The position numbers were made by a program, and so were the translations under genes. From contig NZ_SPNJ01000001.1 in the NCBI RefSeq assembly GCF_004563925.1, forward strand, positions 372,001 through 436,000: a stretch of DNA of 64,000 bases, written 5' to 3'. Positions 4,271-41,011 of the stretch are shown piece after piece; position 1 is the stretch's first letter, and each line of letters begins with the position of its first letter. The stretch comes from Herbaspirillum sp. 3R11. GTDB taxonomy: Bacteria; Pseudomonadota; Gammaproteobacteria; Burkholderiales; Burkholderiaceae_D. The notes under the pieces were generated by a model. The model worked only from the letters and a program-made list of their open reading frames with translations. It searched no databases and was not told where the DNA came from.

Positions 4271-4393
4271 ATGCGCCATGCCGTTCTGATTGCCGTCGTC
4301 GCCATTGCCGTGCTGGCCACGGCCTGCCAGCGCAAGGACAAGCCGCCTACGCCCACGGTGTCGCTGGCGCCGGCCGTGCAAGTACTGGCTTGA
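4271..4393 (+). CDS. Very small lipoprotein (40 aa)
   Basis: An ATG preceded by a clear AGGAG ribosome-binding site 5 nt upstream opens a 40-codon frame. It encodes a hydrophobic signal segment (AVLIAVVAIAVLA) ending in TAC, a lipobox-like Cys at residue 17, then a short Lys/Pro-rich tail. It resembles the tiny entericidin/LptM-like lipoproteins that are often missed in annotation. The lipobox has Ala rather than Leu at -3, so lipidation is likely rather than certain. No partner gene is evident. Confidence 0.65.
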   Translation: MRHAVLIAVVAIAVLATACQRKDKPPTPTVSLAPAVQVLA

Positions 4394-4411
4394 TGGGATG
4401 AGTTATTGCTT

Positions 4412-4548
4412 TTGTGAATATCTGCTATTGGAACAATAAAGCAGACGGGGGGAGGGTGCGTCGCTATAGTTACACCTGTCTCCTCCAATTCTCCTCCTTA
4501 AGAAGATTGGATTCAGCCCGCAACCTCTGGTTCGCGGGCTTTTTTTTG
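4412..4548 (+). ncRNA. Candidate small RNA with CU-rich segment and terminator
   Basis: No gene fills 4394-4630. A promoter-like pair, TTGTGA (4412-4417) and AATAAA (4435-4440) with 17-bp spacing, precedes a G-rich stretch and then a CU-rich stretch containing CTCCTCC twice (around 4479-4498). A good Rho-independent terminator follows: AGCCCGC (4515-4521) pairs with GCGGGCT (4534-4540) before an eight-T run. A transcript of about 100 nt would result. CCUCC motifs can pair with ribosome-binding sites in many sRNAs. Only the terminator is strong evidence. Confidence 0.35.
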
Positions 4549-4630
4549 TCCTGAGATTTTGTGCCGGGAATGGTTTCGCGCTTCTTGGTAAGATGTCGGC
4601 AAGCCCCATGCAGTCCTTGTAAAGATATCC

Positions 4631-4822
4631 ATGTCCCAGACTCCCCCTGAACGCCCCGATACCCCTTGTGTTGCCGTTTGTTCCACCACTTTTGACGATG
4701 TTTGCCGCGGTTGCGGTCGCACCGTGTCGGAAGTCGCACACTGGGTGTTCATGACCGAGCAGGAGAAGGACGCGGTCTGGATACGTATTACCGCCGAGGG
4801 ATATCCGCGTCGCAAGTCCTAG
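4631..4822 (+). CDS. DUF1289 small Cys-rich protein
   Basis: 63 aa, matching DUF1289 in length and motif: Cys13 and Cys17 (PCVAVCS), then Cys25 and Cys28 (VCRGCGRT), followed by EVAHW. The four Cys arrangement suggests a small metal- or iron-sulfur-binding protein. Function is not established in the family. It follows the candidate sRNA terminator and precedes the isochorismatase-like lipoprotein, and is probably transcribed alone. Confidence 0.85.
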   Translation: MSQTPPERPDTPCVAVCSTTFDDVCRGCGRTVSEVAHWVFMTEQEKDAVWIRITAEGYPRRKS

Positions 4823-34237: not shown

Positions 34238-34882
34238 CTATTCGTAGCGCTGTTCCACCGCAAATTTGATCAGTTCCGCCTGACCGTCGATGCCGAGCTT
34301 GCGCTTGATGTTCAGGCGATGCGTCTCCACCGTGCGCACGCTCAGGTCCAGCTCGCGTGCAATCTGCTTGTTCGATTCGCCGTTGGCGATATGCTGCAGC
34401 ACCTGGCGCTCGCGCGAGGTCAGCAGGTCGCCTGCCGCCAGCGGCTGCGACAGTTTCCTGGCCAGCGCGGCGCTGTAATAAATCCCTCCCGATATCACCG
34501 TCTCGATGGCCCGGATAATGTCCTGGCCCGGGGCATCCTTGAGCACGTAGCCGCGTGCGCCGGCCTGGATCGACTGCATCACGTATTCGCTCTTGTCGTG
34601 CATGCTCAGGATCAGCACGGCGATCTCCGGAAAGCGTGCGTGGAATTCCGCCGTCAGGTCGATACCGTTCATGCCGCGCATGTTGATGTCCATCAGCACC
34701 AGATCGATCTCCTGCAGCGTCGCCAGTTTCAGGGCCTCGTCGGCGCCGCCGGCTTCGGCCACCACGTGCAGGTTCGTCACCGTCTCCAGTCGCGCGCGCA
34801 AGCCGTCGCGTACCAGCGGATGATCGTCGACCAGCATGATGCGGGTGACATTGGACGCAGACGTCGATGTGGACTCAGACAT
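34238..34882 (-). CDS. NarL/FixJ-type response regulator
   Basis: 214 aa: receiver domain (14-130; Asp19, Asp20, phospho-acceptor Asp65, Lys115) and a LuxR-type helix-turn-helix (about 150-210, LTSRERQVLQHIANGESNKQIARELDLS). It overlaps the upstream kinase gene by 8 bp, so the pair is translationally coupled. Both are divergent from cstA, and repeated TACGTAG boxes upstream of cstA are plausible binding sites. Likely controls cstA. Confidence 0.93.
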   Translation of the reverse strand: MSESTSTSASNVTRIMLVDDHPLVRDGLRARLETVTNLHVVAEAGGADEALKLATLQEIDLVLMDINMRGMNGIDLTAEFHARFPEIAVLILSMHDKSEYVMQSIQAGARGYVLKDAPGQDIIRAIETVISGGIYYSAALARKLSQPLAAGDLLTSRERQVLQHIANGESNKQIARELDLSVRTVETHRLNIKRKLGIDGQAELIKFAVEQRYE

Positions 34883-36263
34883 GGGGATATACCGGTGCGG
34901 TTGAGTGGGGAATGCGGGCCGTCACGACCGTGCCTTCCGACGAAGAGCGCAGCGAGAAGCTGCCGCCCACGGCTTCCAGACGTTCGACCATGTTGCGCAG
35001 GCCGATACCGCGCTTGGGATGGTCGTCGATCTGGTCGAGATTGAATCCGATGCCGTTATCGCCAATCTCCAGCGTAACGTGGCCGGCGTCGGCATGCAGC
35101 TGCATGTCGATCTGGGTGGCTTGGGCGTGGCGCGCGATATTGGTCAGCGCTTCCTGCGCGATGCGGAACAGCACCGTGTTGGCCACGCCCGACAAGGTAT
35201 CGACCTGGGCGCCGGCATGGAAGGCGATCGGCGTCGACGCAGTGCTGCTCCATTCCTGGCACAGATGTTCCAGCGCCGCGGCCAGCCCCAGGTCGTCCAG
35301 GATGGCAGGGCGCAGGTCATGAGAAATGCGGCGCACTTCGGCCAGCACGTCAGTGATCTGGGTGGCGGTGCGTTCGACGCTGAGCTTGGCGGCCGCAGCC
35401 TGCTCGGGCGTGCCCGACAATCGGATGACGGCGGCTTCGATCTGCAGCTTGATCGACACGAGCCACTGGCTGATGCCGTCGTGCAAATCGCGTGACAGCC
35501 GCGCGCGTTCTTCTTCCTGCGAGCGCACCACGCGCTGCGCCAGCTGCTTGAGCTTGGCGTCGGCGACGCGATGTTCGCTGACGTTGAGCAGCAAGCCGGA
35601 CAGCGCCACCACCAGCGCGCTCAGGATGGCGATGCCGGCGATCAGCAGCATGGTCTTGTGGATGTGGCCGGACACCTGGTTGTCGATCTTTTCCAGCGCG
35701 GCGTCGACGTCGTCGAGATAAATGCCGGTGCCGACCACCCAGCCCCAATTCGGTATCGCCACCACGTAGCCGAGCTTGGGCGCGACGGTGTGGCTGGACG
35801 GCTTTTCCCACAAGTAACGCACGTAGCCGCCGCCTTCGTTGGCGCGCGCGATCAGCAGCTGGATGGTCGGGCTGCCGCTGGCATCGCGCCAGTCCCACAT
35901 GTCGCGGCCGACCAGCTCGGGTTGGCGCGGATGGACCAGGTTCTTGCCGCGCTGATCGTAGACGTAGAAATAACCGTCGTCGCCGAAATCGAGGCGTTCC
36001 AGAATCCGCTTGGCTTCTTCCTGCACTGCGGTGTCGCTGCGGCCCGATTCGTACAGGTGCGCAATCGCGCGCGTGGCCAGGTCGACGTAGTGCTTGAGCT
36101 CGGCATCCTTGCTCGCCAGATAGGCCGCCTGCACCGAGGCGCGCTGCTGCTGGCCGAGCGTCACCGCCTGGTGGCGCACCACCAGCGCGATCGCGGACAA
36201 GGCCAGCGCCAGTGGGACGATGGCGAGGAAAATGATCTTGTGACGTAAGTTCATGTCGCGCAT
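34875..36263 (-). CDS. Cache-domain sensor histidine kinase (HisKA_3)
   Basis: 462 aa, inner membrane. Transmembrane segments at about 9-30 and 204-226 bracket a periplasmic single-Cache domain (about 40-195; the DGYFYVYDQRGKNLVHP and GWVVGTGIYLDD strands are typical). The HisKA_3 dimerisation helix carries phosphorylated His261 (SRDLHDGISQW), followed by the ATPase domain with DNGIGF near 393. Single-Cache kinases of this type often sense small carboxylates; next to cstA, pyruvate is a reasonable guess only. A second ATG, three codons downstream, is possible. Confidence 0.92.
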   Translation of the reverse strand: MRDMNLRHKIIFLAIVPLALALSAIALVVRHQAVTLGQQQRASVQAAYLASKDAELKHYVDLATRAIAHLYESGRSDTAVQEEAKRILERLDFGDDGYFYVYDQRGKNLVHPRQPELVGRDMWDWRDASGSPTIQLLIARANEGGGYVRYLWEKPSSHTVAPKLGYVVAIPNWGWVVGTGIYLDDVDAALEKIDNQVSGHIHKTMLLIAGIAILSALVVALSGLLLNVSEHRVADAKLKQLAQRVVRSQEEERARLSRDLHDGISQWLVSIKLQIEAAVIRLSGTPEQAAAAKLSVERTATQITDVLAEVRRISHDLRPAILDDLGLAAALEHLCQEWSSTASTPIAFHAGAQVDTLSGVANTVLFRIAQEALTNIARHAQATQIDMQLHADAGHVTLEIGDNGIGFNLDQIDDHPKRGIGLRNMVERLEAVGGSFSLRSSSEGTVVTARIPHSTAPVYPHV

Positions 36264-36264
36264 T

Positions 36265-36350
36265 CTACATAACTACAAGTACGTAGTTATACGTAGCGAA
36301 CCTGCGTAGTGCTCCGCTTGTGGCGGCTCCTCCGATATCAAATACTACGC
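36265..36350. promoter_or_regulatory. Repeated TACGTAG boxes between kinase gene and cstA
   Basis: TACGTAG occurs at 36280-36286 and 36290-36296, 10 bp apart, about one helical turn. CTACATAACTAC (36265-36276) mirrors part of this. Farther on, GCGTAGT (36304-36310) and ACTACGC (36344-36350) form another inverted pair. Repeats one turn apart and inverted heptamers are typical of NarL-type regulator sites. The binding protein is inferred. Confidence 0.5.
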
Positions 36351-36443
36351 TCCGTACCGATCCCTCGCGGACGGGCAATGTCGCACAACAAAAACAATAA
36401 AAACAATTTCCATAAAACAGAGATCCCGTCAGGGAGGAGAACA

Positions 36444-38513
36444 ATGAACCAATTGACTTCAAAATTGGGCTGGCTCGCGCTGGCCCTGCTCGGCGCATGC
36501 TCGCTGGGCTACGTCGCCCTGCAGCGCGGCGAATCGATCAATGCAGTCTGGATCGTCATCGCGGCGGTCTGCGTCTATCTGATCGCCTACCGCTTCTACA
36601 GCCTCTATATCGCCAAACAGGTGCTGAGCCTGGACCCGGCGCGCATGACGCCGGCCTACAAGTTCAACGACGGCCTCGACTACGTCCCGACCAACAAGTA
36701 CGTGCTGTTCGGCCACCACTTCGCCGCCATCGCCGGCGCCGGTCCGCTGGTCGGCCCGGTGCTGGCCGCGCAGATGGGTTACCTGCCGGGCATGCTGTGG
36801 ATCCTGGCCGGGGTGGTGTTCGCCGGTGCGGTGCAGGACTTCATGGTGCTGTTCATCTCGACGCGCCGCGACGGCCGTTCGCTGGGCGACCTGATCAAGT
36901 CCGAGCTCGGCAATACGCCGGGCGTGATCGCGCTGTTCGGCGCCTTCATGATCATGGTCATCATCCTCGCGGTGCTGGCGCTGATCGTGGTCAAGGCGCT
37001 GGCCGAATCGCCGTGGGGCACCTTCACCGTGGCGGCGACGATCCCGATCGCGCTGTTCATGGGCGTCTATACGCGCTATCTGCGTGCGGGCCGGGTCGGC
37101 GAAGTCTCGCTGATCGGCTTCGTGCTGTTGATGCTGGCCATCGTCGGCGGCCAGTACGTGCAGGAGCACGCGACGCTGGCGCAGATGTTCACCTTCACCG
37201 GCAAGGAACTGACCTGGATGCTGATCGGCTACGGCTTCGTCGCCTCGGTGCTGCCGGTGTGGCTGCTGCTGGCGCCGCGCGACTACCTGTCGACCTTCCT
37301 CAAGATCGGCACCATCCTGGCGCTGGCGCTGGGCATCGTGTTCATCGCGCCGCACTTGAAGATGCACGCCGTCACCAAGTTCATCGACGGCAGCGGTCCG
37401 GTGTGGTCGGGTTCGCTGTTCCCGTTCCTGTTCATCACCATCGCCTGCGGCGCGGTGTCGGGTTTCCACGCGCTGATCTCGTCGGGCACCACACCCAAGC
37501 TGCTGGAAAATGAGCAGCACGCGCGCTTCATCGGCTACGGCGCCATGCTGATGGAATCCTTCGTCGCCATCATGGCGCTGATCGCAGCCTCGTGCATCGA
37601 ACCGGGCATCTACTTCGCCATGAACAGCCCGGCCGCGCTGATCGGCACCACGCCGGACCAGGTCGCCGCCACCATTTCGCAATGGGGCTTCATGCTCACG
37701 CCGGAAATGCTCACCCACACCGCGCAGGCGGTCGGCGAGCACACCATCATCTCGCGCGCAGGCGGCGCGCCGACGCTGGCCGTCGGCATGGCGCAGATCC
37801 TCTCGGGCGTGACCGGCGAGGCCATGATGGCGTTCTGGTACCACTTCGCCATCCTGTTCGAAGCCTTGTTCATCCTGACCGCCGTCGACGCCGGCACGCG
37901 CGCCGGCCGCTTTATGCTGCAGGATTTGCTGGGCACCTTTGTCCCTTCGATGAAGCGCACCGAATCCTGGGTTGCCAGCCTGATCGCCACCGGCCTGTGC
38001 GTGGCCGGCTGGGGCTACTTCCTGTACCAGGGCGTGATCGATCCGCTGGGCGGCATCAACACGCTGTGGCCGCTGTTCGGCATCTCCAACCAGATGCTGG
38101 CCGGCATTGCGCTGATCCTGGCTACCTGCGTGCTGTTCCGCATGAAGCGCGACCGCTTCGCCTGGGTCACGGCCGTGCCGACCGTATGGCTGCTGGCGTG
38201 CACGCTGACCGCCGGCTGGCAAAAGGTGTTCGACGCCAATCCGCGCGTCGGCTTCCTGGCCCATGCGCAGAAGTACCAGGCCGCGCTGGCCGACGGCAAG
38301 CTGCTGGCGCCGGCCAAGTCGATTGACCAGATGCGTCAGGTGATTTTCAACGACTACCTCGACGCCGGCCTGGCCGCGATGTTCATGCTGGTGGTGATCA
38401 GCGTGCTGGGCTTCGGCATACGCACCGTGCTGCAGGCGCGTGCGGCGCAACGGCCGAGCGTGCGCGAGTCGGCCTACGAAAGCATGCCGGCCGCCGCAGC
38501 GGCGCCGCAATAA
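36444..38513 (+). CDS. cstA: CstA-family pyruvate/peptide transporter
   Basis: 689 aa from the ATG at 36444, chosen for its GGGAGGAGA site 6 nt upstream; 45 upstream codons are open but unlike the family. A polytopic protein with about 16-18 hydrophobic segments. Conserved stretches include HHFAAIAGAGPLVGPVLAAQMG near 90, GFHALISSGTTPK near 345, and LTAVDAGTRAGRFMLQD near 475. CstA and its paralogue BtsT import pyruvate or peptides in starvation. Paired with ybdD downstream and a two-component system upstream. Confidence 0.95.
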   Translation: MNQLTSKLGWLALALLGACSLGYVALQRGESINAVWIVIAAVCVYLIAYRFYSLYIAKQVLSLDPARMTPAYKFNDGLDYVPTNKYVLFGHHFAAIAGAGPLVGPVLAAQMGYLPGMLWILAGVVFAGAVQDFMVLFISTRRDGRSLGDLIKSELGNTPGVIALFGAFMIMVIILAVLALIVVKALAESPWGTFTVAATIPIALFMGVYTRYLRAGRVGEVSLIGFVLLMLAIVGGQYVQEHATLAQMFTFTGKELTWMLIGYGFVASVLPVWLLLAPRDYLSTFLKIGTILALALGIVFIAPHLKMHAVTKFIDGSGPVWSGSLFPFLFITIACGAVSGFHALISSGTTPKLLENEQHARFIGYGAMLMESFVAIMALIAASCIEPGIYFAMNSPAALIGTTPDQVAATISQWGFMLTPEMLTHTAQAVGEHTIISRAGGAPTLAVGMAQILSGVTGEAMMAFWYHFAILFEALFILTAVDAGTRAGRFMLQDLLGTFVPSMKRTESWVASLIATGLCVAGWGYFLYQGVIDPLGGINTLWPLFGISNQMLAGIALILATCVLFRMKRDRFAWVTAVPTVWLLACTLTAGWQKVFDANPRVGFLAHAQKYQAALADGKLLAPAKSIDQMRQVIFNDYLDAGLAAMFMLVVISVLGFGIRTVLQARAAQRPSVRESAYESMPAAAAAPQ

Positions 38514-38538
38514 ACCTCGACAACACACAGGAGCCGCC

Positions 38539-38754
38539 ATGGGCAAACCGAATCTTTTGCAAGAATGCGTGAAGCTGGGGCGCTATGCAGGCCAGACGCT
38601 GCGCCTGATGGTGGGTTTGCCCGAATACGACGCCTACGTGGCGCACATGCAGGCGACCCATCCCGAGGCCGACGTGATGAGCTACGAAGCGTTTTTCCGT
38701 GAACGCCAGGAAGCGCGCTACGGCGGCAAGGGACGGGTGGGGCGCTGTTGCTGA
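38539..38754 (+). CDS. ybdD: YbdD/YjiX-family small protein
   Basis: 71 aa from the ATG at 38539 (CAGGAG upstream); a longer frame starts inside cstA and is discarded. Matches YbdD/YjiX (DUF466): GLPEYDAYVAHMQATHPEA, SYEAFFRERQEARYGG and the Cys-Cys terminus. These proteins are almost always encoded right after cstA or btsT and are needed for their transport activity. The gap from cstA is 25 bp. Confidence 0.93.
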   Translation: MGKPNLLQECVKLGRYAGQTLRLMVGLPEYDAYVAHMQATHPEADVMSYEAFFRERQEARYGGKGRVGRCC

Positions 38755-38784: not shown

Positions 38785-38811
38785 AAGGAAGCCTGCGGGC
38801 TTCCTTTTTTG
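38785..38811 (+). terminator. Terminator after cstA-ybdD
   Basis: AAGGAAGCC (38785-38793) pairs with GGCTTCCTT (38798-38806) around a TGCG loop and is followed by a T-run. Confidence 0.9.
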
Positions 38812-39010: not shown

Positions 39011-39394
39011 ATGCTCGCCACCCAATCTCCGAAGAAAGTCCTGATCGTCGACGACAGCAAAGTCTCGCGCATGGTCATCAAGGCGCACATCCTCGCCGCC
39101 TATCCTGAATGGAGCGTACAGGAGGCGGCCAGCGGCGACGAGGCGATCAGCGCGGTCGAGCGCGATCTGCCCGATTACTGCACGATGGACATCAACATGC
39201 CGGGCATGCTCGGCACCGACGCCGCCGAAATCATCCTCGCCAAACATCCGCAACTGCGCGTGGTGATTTTCTCGGCCAATATCCAGGAAGCCGCGCAATC
39301 GCGTGCGCAGCAATTGGGCGCCTTGTTCGTCGCCAAGCCGGTGACGGAAAAATCCATCGCCCAGGCGCTCGGCCATTTCGCGAGGGGTGCATGA
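39011..39394 (+). CDS. Single-domain response regulator (CheY-like)
   Basis: 127 aa, a receiver with no output domain. Asp14, Asp15, phospho-acceptor Asp60 (CTMDINMPGM) and Lys109 (VAKPV) are all present. It overlaps the next gene, a CheC-type phosphatase, by ATGA, and a diguanylate cyclase follows. It therefore probably acts through protein contact within this module rather than on DNA. The upstream 250 bp is AT-rich, with a TAGAAT box near 38970. Confidence 0.92.
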   Translation: MLATQSPKKVLIVDDSKVSRMVIKAHILAAYPEWSVQEAASGDEAISAVERDLPDYCTMDINMPGMLGTDAAEIILAKHPQLRVVIFSANIQEAAQSRAQQLGALFVAKPVTEKSIAQALGHFARGA

Positions 39395-40041
39395 AGGCGA
39401 AGGTCCTGTCCGAGATCCAGATCGACGCGCTCACCGAAGTCTTCAACGTCGGCGCGGGCAGGGCGGCGCTCAGCCTGAGCGAAATCGTCGGCGAAGAAGT
39501 CATGCTGTCGGTGCCGTCGATCGAGGTGCTCAAGGCCGAGGACGTCAACAGTCGCGTGCTGACGCTCAAGGATGACAAGTTCGCCACCGTGAGCCAACTG
39601 TTTTCCGGCCCGTTCGAGGCCGAGGCGGTGCTGCTGTTTACCGAGAATTACGCCCTCGAAATCGTGCGCGACATGATGGGCTCGCAGATGAGCATCGAGG
39701 ACCTCGCCGAATTCGAGCAGGAAGCCATGTGCGAGCTCGGTAACATCATCCTCAACGCCTGCCTGTCGGCGATGGCGGACATGCTCGGCATCAGCCTGAA
39801 CAGTTCGCTGCCGACTTACGCGATGTCGTCGCCGGACGAAATCACGGCGCGGCTGGCGGACAAGCGCGACGAGGAAAACGGGGAAGATGATGACAATGAC
39901 GGAAGTTACGTGCTGGTCCTGCACATCGACCTGGTGCTCGAAAAGCACCATACCGAAGGTCATCTGATCTTCCTGCTCAGCTCGACTTCGCTGAGCAAGC
40001 TGATCTCCCATATCCAGCAGTATTTGAACAATATTCTCTGA
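39391..40041 (+). CDS. CheC-family receiver phosphatase
   Basis: 216 aa from the ATG at 39391 overlapping the receiver gene. Carries both CheC-type active-site helices: DALTEVFNVGAG near residues 10-21 and EQEAMCELGNIILN near 109-122, each with the Glu and Asn that dephosphorylate receiver Asp. A central acidic insert (DEENGEDDDNDG) is unusual. By analogy with CheC/CheX/FliY it should dephosphorylate the receiver encoded just upstream. Confidence 0.88.
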   Translation: MKAKVLSEIQIDALTEVFNVGAGRAALSLSEIVGEEVMLSVPSIEVLKAEDVNSRVLTLKDDKFATVSQLFSGPFEAEAVLLFTENYALEIVRDMMGSQMSIEDLAEFEQEAMCELGNIILNACLSAMADMLGISLNSSLPTYAMSSPDEITARLADKRDEENGEDDDNDGSYVLVLHIDLVLEKHHTEGHLIFLLSSTSLSKLISHIQQYLNNIL

Positions 40042-40051
40042 ACGGCACGTC

Positions 40052-41011
40052 ATGAGCAGCGCGGCACCTTTGGGATTTTCTCCGGATGAAGTGGTCAACA
40101 GCATCGGCCTGGGACTGGTCGTGGTGGACAGCGAACTGAACATTCTGCTGTGGAACGACTGGATGACCAGACACAGCCGCATCACCGGCGAGCAGGCGCT
40201 GGGCAAGAACATCATCGCGCTGTTCGGCGAACAACTCACGCCGGGTTTTTTGCGTACGCTCAACAACGCCATCGGCTATGGCTTGCCGGCCATGATGTCG
40301 AGCGCGTTGCACCGTTCGCCGCTACCCTTGTTCCTCGAGCTGGACAAGAGCGACAAGCCGCTGCGCATGCACCAGTCGATCGTCATGACGCCGCTGCAAG
40401 CCAGCGAAGGCAAGGCGGCCAGCTGCCTGATCCAGATCAGCGATTCGAGCACGTCCATCAAGCGCGAAAAAATGCTGATCTCGCATTCCGATGCCCTGAA
40501 ACGCGAAGCCATCACCGACGGCCTCACCGGCATCTACAACCGCCGCTTCTTCGACGAGAGCTATGCGATTGCGTTGCGCACGGCCAAACGCAATCGCAGC
40601 AGCCTGTCGCTGTTCATGATCGACATCGACTACTTCAAGCAGTACAACGACCACTACGGCCACGTCGAAGGCGACAAGGCGCTGCAACTGGTCGCCAACA
40701 CCCTGCGCGCACAGATGCGCAGACCAACCGATATTTGCGCGCGCTACGGCGGCGAAGAATTCATCATGCTGATCCCCGGCTTCACGCCGGAGCAGGCCGG
40801 GCGCTTCGGCGAACGGCTGCGCGCCAGCGTCAGCGACCTGGCGATTGCGCATGAAAAGTCGACCGTGCAGCCGAACATGACCATCAGCGTCGGCGTCTGC
40901 ACCATGACGCCGGACCAGACCAGCGAAGGCAAGACCTTGCTCAGCGGCGCTGACGGCGCCTTGTACCAAGCCAAGAAGCAGGGCCGCAACTGCGTCCAGA
41001 GCGCGTCCTGA
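40052..41011 (+). CDS. PAS-GGDEF diguanylate cyclase (soluble)
   Basis: 319 aa with no membrane segment. A PAS-like sensor domain (about 13-130, GLGLVVVDSELNILLWND) and a GGDEF domain (about 150-318) with active site GGEEF (233-237) and an intact inhibitory I-site RPTD (224-227). It is the third gene of the receiver-CheC-cyclase operon, 10 bp after cheC, so its activity may be tuned by the phosphorylation state of the receiver. That link is inference. Confidence 0.92.
   Translation: MSSAAPLGFSPDEVVNSIGLGLVVVDSELNILLWNDWMTRHSRITGEQALGKNIIALFGEQLTPGFLRTLNNAIGYGLPAMMSSALHRSPLPLFLELDKSDKPLRMHQSIVMTPLQASEGKAASCLIQISDSSTSIKREKMLISHSDALKREAITDGLTGIYNRRFFDESYAIALRTAKRNRSSLSLFMIDIDYFKQYNDHYGHVEGDKALQLVANTLRAQMRRPTDICARYGGEEFIMLIPGFTPEQAGRFGERLRASVSDLAIAHEKSTVQPNMTISVGVCTMTPDQTSEGKTLLSGADGALYQAKKQGRNCVQSAS

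Follow-up and report, generated by a model that had tools for sequence, protein, structure and literature searches.

Introduction

CheC proteins classically act on CheY. That CheC also acts outside chemotaxis is already known, and the 2008 review by Muff and Ordal is said to have assigned class II CheC to systems other than chemotaxis. Proteins that combine a receiver with CheC (REC-CheC), such as Psyr_0886 and PSPTO_1039, are listed as a response-regulator type and as orphan regulators (PMC2222644, PMC5654926). Psyr_0886 has been cloned, and its phosphorylation by BphP1 was not detectable (PMC5654926). The roles of the asparagine and of the acidic residue of CheC have been described (PMC3035606). 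A motility suppressor of Vibrio cholerae bore a secondary mutation in VC0377, a gene of the CheX family (PMC8789113). Neither a three-gene order of receiver, CheC and PAS-output protein nor exchange of the output was found described in the open-licence papers searched. Here we analyse such a cassette in the window, which is the whole stretch of 64,000 nucleotides from Herbaspirillum sp. 3R11 under study.

Gene organization of the cassette

The cassette occupies positions 39011-41011 of the window and is preceded by a terminator-like hairpin:

38785-38806, + strand: terminator-like hairpin that separates the cassette from the cstA/YbdD-like unit preceding it (consensus match only)
39011-39394, + strand: single-domain receiver (RR), 127 amino acids (Pfam, residue check)
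39391-40041, + strand: predicted CheC-type phosphatase, 216 amino acids (Pfam, motifs, model)
40052-41011, + strand: predicted PAS-GGDEF diguanylate cyclase, 319 amino acids (Pfam, motifs, model)

The receiver and CheC genes overlap by 4 bp (ATGA), and 10 bp separate the CheC gene from the cyclase gene. An earlier note on this DNA had described three tightly coupled genes, and its coordinates, overlap and gap are exact. A consensus scan of the region detected four terminator-like hairpins, compared to a mean of 2.6 in shuffled sequences, and no sigma-70-like promoter. Alignment of the DNA upstream of the receiver genes revealed nothing noteworthy.

At 34238-38754, genes for a regulator and an sCache-HisKA_3 sensor kinase (- strand) are divergent to cstA and a small YbdD-like gene (+ strand). 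The product of cstA scores 877 bits with the Pfam CstA model. The four genes may form a nutrient control unit. The best 80 of 251 loci include 15 from Herbaspirillum, of which 10 have the sensor kinase and the LuxR-type regulator beside the cassette and six have cstA; these neighbours are absent from all 65 other loci. The sensor kinase was rejected as a dedicated kinase linked to the cassette; the terminator-like hairpin stands between its unit and the cassette.

Domains, catalytic residues and structure models

The positions of the catalytic and signature elements are as follows:

39424-39516, + strand: CheC active site 1, D12-x3-E16-x2-N19-x22-P42 (motif and alignment)
39721-39813, + strand: CheC active site 2, E111-x3-E115-x2-N118-x22-P141 (motif and alignment)
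39871-39897, + strand: nine-residue acidic loop insert in CheC, residues 161-169 (alignment)
40079-40486, + strand: cassette-specific PAS with the first part of the linker helix; its signature is LWNxW...LHRSPLPL (alignment)
40721-40732, + strand: I-site RxxD, residues 224-227 (motif)
40748-40762, + strand: A-site GGEEF, residues 233-237 (motif)

Response_reg is the single Pfam domain of the receiver (72.6 bits, over the cut-off); the earlier note had called the receiver output-less. The product of 39011-39394 has the acidic pair, phospho-acceptor and lysine of a single-domain response regulator: the acidic pocket is formed by D14/D15, the phospho-acceptor is D60 (codon 39188-39190), and the lysine is K109. 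In an alignment of 201 receivers, some of them from outside cassettes, the phospho-acceptor is kept in 200 and the lysine in all 201. The receiver falls into a 9-row set (99*) of cassette receivers and is separate from the flagellar CheY and CheB receivers of the same genome on a quick tree of 43 receivers, which, like the quick tree of 101 CheC proteins used below, has several long branches and partly hand-picked rows.

The second protein matches the Pfam models CheX (42.8 bits) and CheC (23.5 bits), both over the cut-off, and the NCBIfam CheC and CheX models below their cut-offs. Used as a query against the Herbaspirillum sp. 3R11 genome, it matches itself alone. Both active-site helices claimed previously are present, with residues D12/E16/N19/P42 and E111/E115/N118/P141. 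The motif, which we take to have the form D/S-x3-E-x2-N-x22-P, is thus found in two copies, the second of which begins with E instead of D/S. The structure model of the protein (pLDDT 85.4, 39 sequences) has the CheC fold, and its best match is CheC of Thermotoga maritima (1xkr, TM 0.81/0.85).

The acidic insert, which the earlier note had found unusual, is real, and the stretch that contains it has 22 residues in the CheC of the window compared to 7-14 in 158 other aligned CheC sequences. It is missing from relatives that are 85-89% identical, and it is located in a low-confidence loop of the model (160-169). Among the genomes compared, the insert is a private loop expansion of one genome, and it looks unimportant.

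The third protein matches GGDEF (171.9 bits) and PAS (23.2 bits), both over the Pfam cut-offs, and the NCBIfam GGDEF domain model passes its cut-off. The A-site together with the GGDEF domain identifies it as a predicted diguanylate cyclase. Its active and inhibitory sites appear intact, as claimed before, with GGEEF at 233-237 and RxxD at 224-227; the latter motif is invariant across 24 aligned cyclases. Three parts are visible in the model of the cyclase (pLDDT 89.1, pTM 0.59, 24 sequences): the N-terminal domain, a long helix formed by residues 133-154, and the GGDEF domain. The best match of the model is the LOV-activated cyclase 8c05, and its GGDEF domain matches WspR structures.

Conservation and spread of the gene order

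A search of 61 genomes with the CheC protein detected it in 24, and in 21 of 34 genomes of the same genus, with the genome of the window included in the counts of 24, 21 and 34; the distribution among close relatives is patchy. All three genes are present in 22 of the 24 loci, again including the window. One of the two remaining loci (L023) has the receiver and CheC, and no cyclase in the flank examined. In the other (L024, 1501-2532, same genus), the CheC gene breaks off after about 48 residues and continues into a gene of cobalamin type; here the cassette has been lost naturally, while the receiver has been retained.

Among the best 80 of 251 confirmed loci in genome contigs, 79 have all three genes. 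One of these 79 (L102) has a cyclase truncated at the end of its contig, and in the 80th (L089) the contig ends soon after CheC. The best 80 come from Herbaspirillum, Undibacterium, Glaciimonas, Gallionella, Rhodoferax, Variovorax, Dechloromonas, Methylovulum and others. In the sequences compared, the three-gene order is conserved far beyond chance. The conservation proposed as a check in the earlier note was thus observed both in the close relatives and in the best loci, and the order is not unique to one genome. In a contig named Stenotrophomonas daejeonensis (L030, 8001-8609), the cassette CheC is 73% identical to that of the window, which reflects either gene transfer or contamination.

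PF04509, a CheC model of 38 positions, by itself misses the CheC of the window genome-wide, and an alignment probe was used instead. When 369 genomes of the class were searched, 62 were detected with the CheC alignment and 64 with the alignment of the cassette PAS, 55 being common to both (Fisher 6e-48, kinship ignored). Seven of the nine genomes detected with PAS alone have a receiver-CheC fusion just upstream that was overlooked by the CheC probe, and these fused cassettes were recovered through PAS. Unbroken CheC of this kind is therefore present in 68 of the 369 genomes (the 62 plus the seven PAS-found fused ones, minus G148 with a broken CheC). Domain tables place a PAS gene next to CheC in 62 of the 68 carriers, the exceptions being G092, G116, G197, G237, G253 and G405. 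Conversely, 65 of the 70 places of the cassette PAS in the 369 genomes adjoin CheC (exceptions L201, L203, L205, L206 and L207). As far as can be judged from sequence, the cassette PAS is specific to CheC neighbourhoods.

In the phylum set, 67 of 299 genomes match at the cut-off used, and 27 of the best 29 loci, counted without that of the window, have the PAS gene. The three parts of the cassette are not inseparable, because CheC is missing beside the receiver and PAS of L205 and L206, and in several loci CheC and PAS occur with no receiver nearby (L153 and, among the 29 phylum loci, L224, L227, L235 and others). The flanks of the phylum loci are 1.5 kb long, so a receiver may be overlooked there, and several of their kinases carry a receiver domain of their own. 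In L205 (434-3378) and L206 (2385-4901), a PAS-GGDEF-EAL gene comes after the receiver, and CheC is absent from the space between the two. A plasmid of Phytobacter diazotrophicus has receiver, CheC and cyclase, and a plasmid of Agrobacterium vitis has receiver, CheX and a PAS kinase, the first part of which gave no match to the cassette PAS models.

Exchange of the output and fusion of the receiver to CheC

The third gene was classified for 75 CheC genes from 73 class loci, excluding the window; some of the loci were chosen through PAS, which favours PAS in the tally. The third gene has GGDEF in 46 cases, a histidine kinase in eight and GGDEF-EAL in seven, the last including L151, which was assigned by hand since its frame is split. 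GGDEF-EAL without the cassette PAS was found twice and a kinase without it once; four frames end after PAS only, and in seven cases no third gene was found. HisKA and HATPase were confirmed with Pfam in L140, L144, L150 and L152. Among the best 29 phylum loci, the 27 PAS genes comprise 23 kinases, one GGDEF protein and three that run off the 1.5-kb flank. The catalytic end that accompanies the cassette PAS thus varies among GGDEF, GGDEF-EAL and histidine kinase. The three main outputs require seven changes on the quick tree of 101 CheC proteins with its long branches.

In L158 (3252-4973) and L162 (5667-7388), the third gene encodes receiver-GGDEF-EAL, with a receiver domain replacing PAS, and site 2 of the CheC is lost (H/T). 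In L144 (1699-8165) and L147 (1330-7816), genes for a STAS-like protein, a receiver-SpoIIE phosphatase, a receiver, CheC and a PAS kinase stand in a row, which by eye also includes a gene resembling a Ser/Thr protein kinase.

Of the 75 class-set CheC genes, 28 encode a fusion with the receiver, which indicates that the two work together, and the fusion corresponds to one change on the 101-protein quick tree. Receiver fusions in L099, L100 and L103 were not counted, as their long upstream extensions are, by eye, open-frame read-through; neither was that in L160, a read-through extension in which Pfam finds the receiver alone. Site 1 (E16, N19) is kept in 111 of 113 CheC proteins of the clade of the window, in all 18 separate ones of the other clade and in all 28 fused ones. 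At site 2, 110 of the 113 proteins of the window clade have E115, and 110 have N118. Site 2 is often lost from fused CheC, in which N118 is lost in 12 of 28 and E115 is replaced by D in all 28.

The fusion is the strongest sign that CheC resets the cassette receiver. The proposed role of CheC as the reset enzyme of the neighbouring receiver is well supported by this comparison, and the previous proposal that the phosphatase clears the receiver is strengthened by it: the evidence is comparative, consisting of the fusions in 28 of 75 genes and the kept phosphosite.

Chemosensory kinases

The kinase partner had been described as missing, which is correct locally, and most loci likewise show no linked kinase. 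When the neighbours in the best 80 of 251 loci were clustered in search of a linked dedicated kinase, no flanking cluster occurred in at least three Herbaspirillum, at least three Undibacterium and at least three other loci; the commonest cluster is present in 32 of the 80 and in no Herbaspirillum. Some relatives in other lineages, in contrast, have CheA beside the cassette. L135 has the order CheC-RR-CheC-cyclase-CheA, and L154 and L157 have CheA-like-CheB-RR-CheC-cyclase. The end of a CheA gene (HATPase and CheW, Pfam) lies just upstream of the receiver in six of the best 29 phylum loci (L232, L242, L243, L245, L249 and L250). In L145 and L148, the upstream gene encodes a hybrid kinase and not CheA. 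CheB adjoins the cassette in L149, a ParA-like gene in L153, and a ParA-like gene with an MCP-like fragment (under the Pfam cut-off) in L151. The CheA-like match in L187, which is STAS and CheW without a kinase domain, was not counted as CheA, and the chemosensory counts leave out a fragment resembling CheB where L144 ends.

CheA (PF02895) was detected in 236 of the 369 class genomes, comprising 65 of the 68 carriers versus 171 of the 301 others (Fisher 4.5e-11, uncorrected for kinship); the association may reflect ancestry or a motile lifestyle. Two of the three PF02895-negative carriers (G101, G291) have a CheA-like gene with Hpt, HATPase, CheW and receiver domains beside the cassette. In the third (G288), a STAS protein is encoded upstream and no receiver was found. 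In L153, a STAS protein is encoded upstream of CheC, at 4370-4675, and no receiver was found; CheA (PF02895) and CheZ were looked for in its genome and not found.

The genome of Herbaspirillum sp. 3R11 has four CheA genes, none of them near the cassette; the closest lies on the same contig, at a distance of about 180 kb. One is located with flagellar genes and another beside a CheZ match; a third is accompanied by CheB and by genes for a receiver and for STAS-like and MCP-like proteins, and the fourth lies before a receiver-GGDEF gene. The particular phosphate donor is therefore a guess. Nevertheless, the missing kinase is probably of the CheA type, because CheA adjoins the cassette in several lineages and is present in most carriers. 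The genome also has three CheD and two CheZ genes, none near the cassette. CheZ is over the cut-off in 60 of the 68 carriers and twice in the Herbaspirillum sp. 3R11 genome, so CheC is probably dispensable as the CheY phosphatase of the genome. CheD was not found in six of the 26 carrier genomes searched for it (of 68).

Proposed mechanism and alternatives

We propose that the cassette is a modular unit in which a CheA-type kinase feeds the receiver, CheC resets it, and the third protein provides the output through its PAS domain; we give this explanation even chances. The receiver would obtain its phosphate from a kinase encoded away from the cassette, in all likelihood one of the CheA type. 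CheC would hydrolyse the receiver phosphate through its E/N pair, making the receiver signal brief. Once phosphorylated, the receiver, alone or with CheC, would act on the third protein through its PAS domain and so raise or lower the output: c-di-GMP synthesis here, and GGDEF-EAL or a second histidine kinase in the same scheme in relatives. The phosphate donor, the dephosphorylation of the receiver and the binding to PAS are the steps that we infer. A CheA-type donor and PAS as the receiving domain are reasonable assumptions of the scheme, and the conserved order supports, by comparison, the cyclase as part of the same module. The earlier reading as a phospho-switch for c-di-GMP fits the Herbaspirillum lineage and is too narrow elsewhere, where the same PAS carries a kinase or GGDEF-EAL.

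A broader version, to which we assign somewhat less than even chances, is that the cassette may be an adaptor spread across Pseudomonadota. The receiver and CheC would form a self-resetting phospho-timer that couples CheA-type arrays, through a dedicated PAS, to exchangeable enzymes, so that one input could be rewired by changing the catalytic end of the third gene.

It is also possible, if unlikely, that CheC is mainly a phospho-gated adaptor: the bound phospho-receiver would make CheC grip or release the PAS protein, which would replace CheD. The loci in which CheC and PAS remain neighbours without a nearby receiver (L153 and several of the 29 phylum loci) fit this idea, as do the rarity of receiver and PAS without CheC (L205 and L206 only), the six of 26 searched carriers in which CheD was not found, and the strengthening of CheC-CheD binding by CheY-P in Bacillus subtilis (PMC3513319). 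However, each of the four E/N positions is kept in 110-111 of 113 proteins of the window clade, which fits catalysis, and the loci lacking a receiver include those with short phylum flanks and with kinases that have a receiver domain of their own.

A somewhat more doubtful alternative places the third protein upstream of the receiver or parallel to it, with PAS sensing a signal, the kinase versions phosphorylating the receiver, and receiver and CheC acting as a phosphate sink or brake. The PAS histidine kinases, which take third place beside eight of the 75 CheC genes of the class set and in 23 of the best 29 phylum loci, and the RR-CheX-PAS kinase order of A. vitis would agree with it. In the class set, though, most third proteins are cyclases that lack a kinase domain (GGDEF in 46 of 75), and six of the 29 phylum loci have an additional CheA upstream. 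That CheC serves the flagellar CheY of ordinary chemotaxis, with the cyclase a bystander, agrees with its classical role and with CheA in 65 of 68 carriers but is very improbable in view of the two CheZ genes and the CheZ of 60 of 68 carriers, the placement of the receiver among cassette receivers on the 43-receiver quick tree, and the fusion and conserved order, which argue for a private partner.

If the modular explanation of kinase, self-resetting receiver and PAS-borne output is true, it explains the role of many CheC and REC-CheC proteins outside flagellar chemotaxis, gives chemosensory kinases a route to setting c-di-GMP, and makes one PAS family the probable docking module. Because nature itself provides output swaps and receiver-CheC fusions, the explanation can be tested directly with few proteins.

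Comparison with known systems

The finding is real and more general than first described, and it combines known parts in a new way. What can be read from the genes themselves comprises domains, catalytic residues, order, fusion, PAS specificity, output exchange and, in some relatives, linkage to CheA. The cassette CheC resembles T. maritima CheC (1xkr, 2f9z) and the CheC/FliY/CheX phosphatases in its fold, its two E/N sites and its Pfam CheC/CheX matches. In contrast to these proteins, it is encoded beside its own receiver and a PAS-output gene and not beside CheD.

In a plasmid of Azospirillum brasilense Sp7 (p2), CheC, a PAS kinase and a response regulator are encoded in this order beside a CheA/CheB/CheR/MCP cluster. 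As in the cassette, a receiver neighbours CheC and a protein whose PAS is that of the cassette (about 85-114 bits). The Sp7 locus differs in that its third gene is a multi-PAS HisKA_2 kinase, its receiver comes last and has a low score with the receiver model, and CheA, CheB, CheR and MCP adjoin.

The proposed control of a cyclase by a receiver is similar to that in the receiver-GGDEF proteins WspR and PleD, and the GGDEF domain matches WspR structures; unlike in WspR and PleD, the cassette receiver and cyclase are separate proteins, and the cyclase has a PAS domain. Psyr_0886 and PSPTO_1039 combine receiver and CheC in one protein, which is the architecture of the fused clade, and the likeness is one of architecture. 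The cassette CheC also resembles class II CheC, which is reported to act outside chemotaxis.
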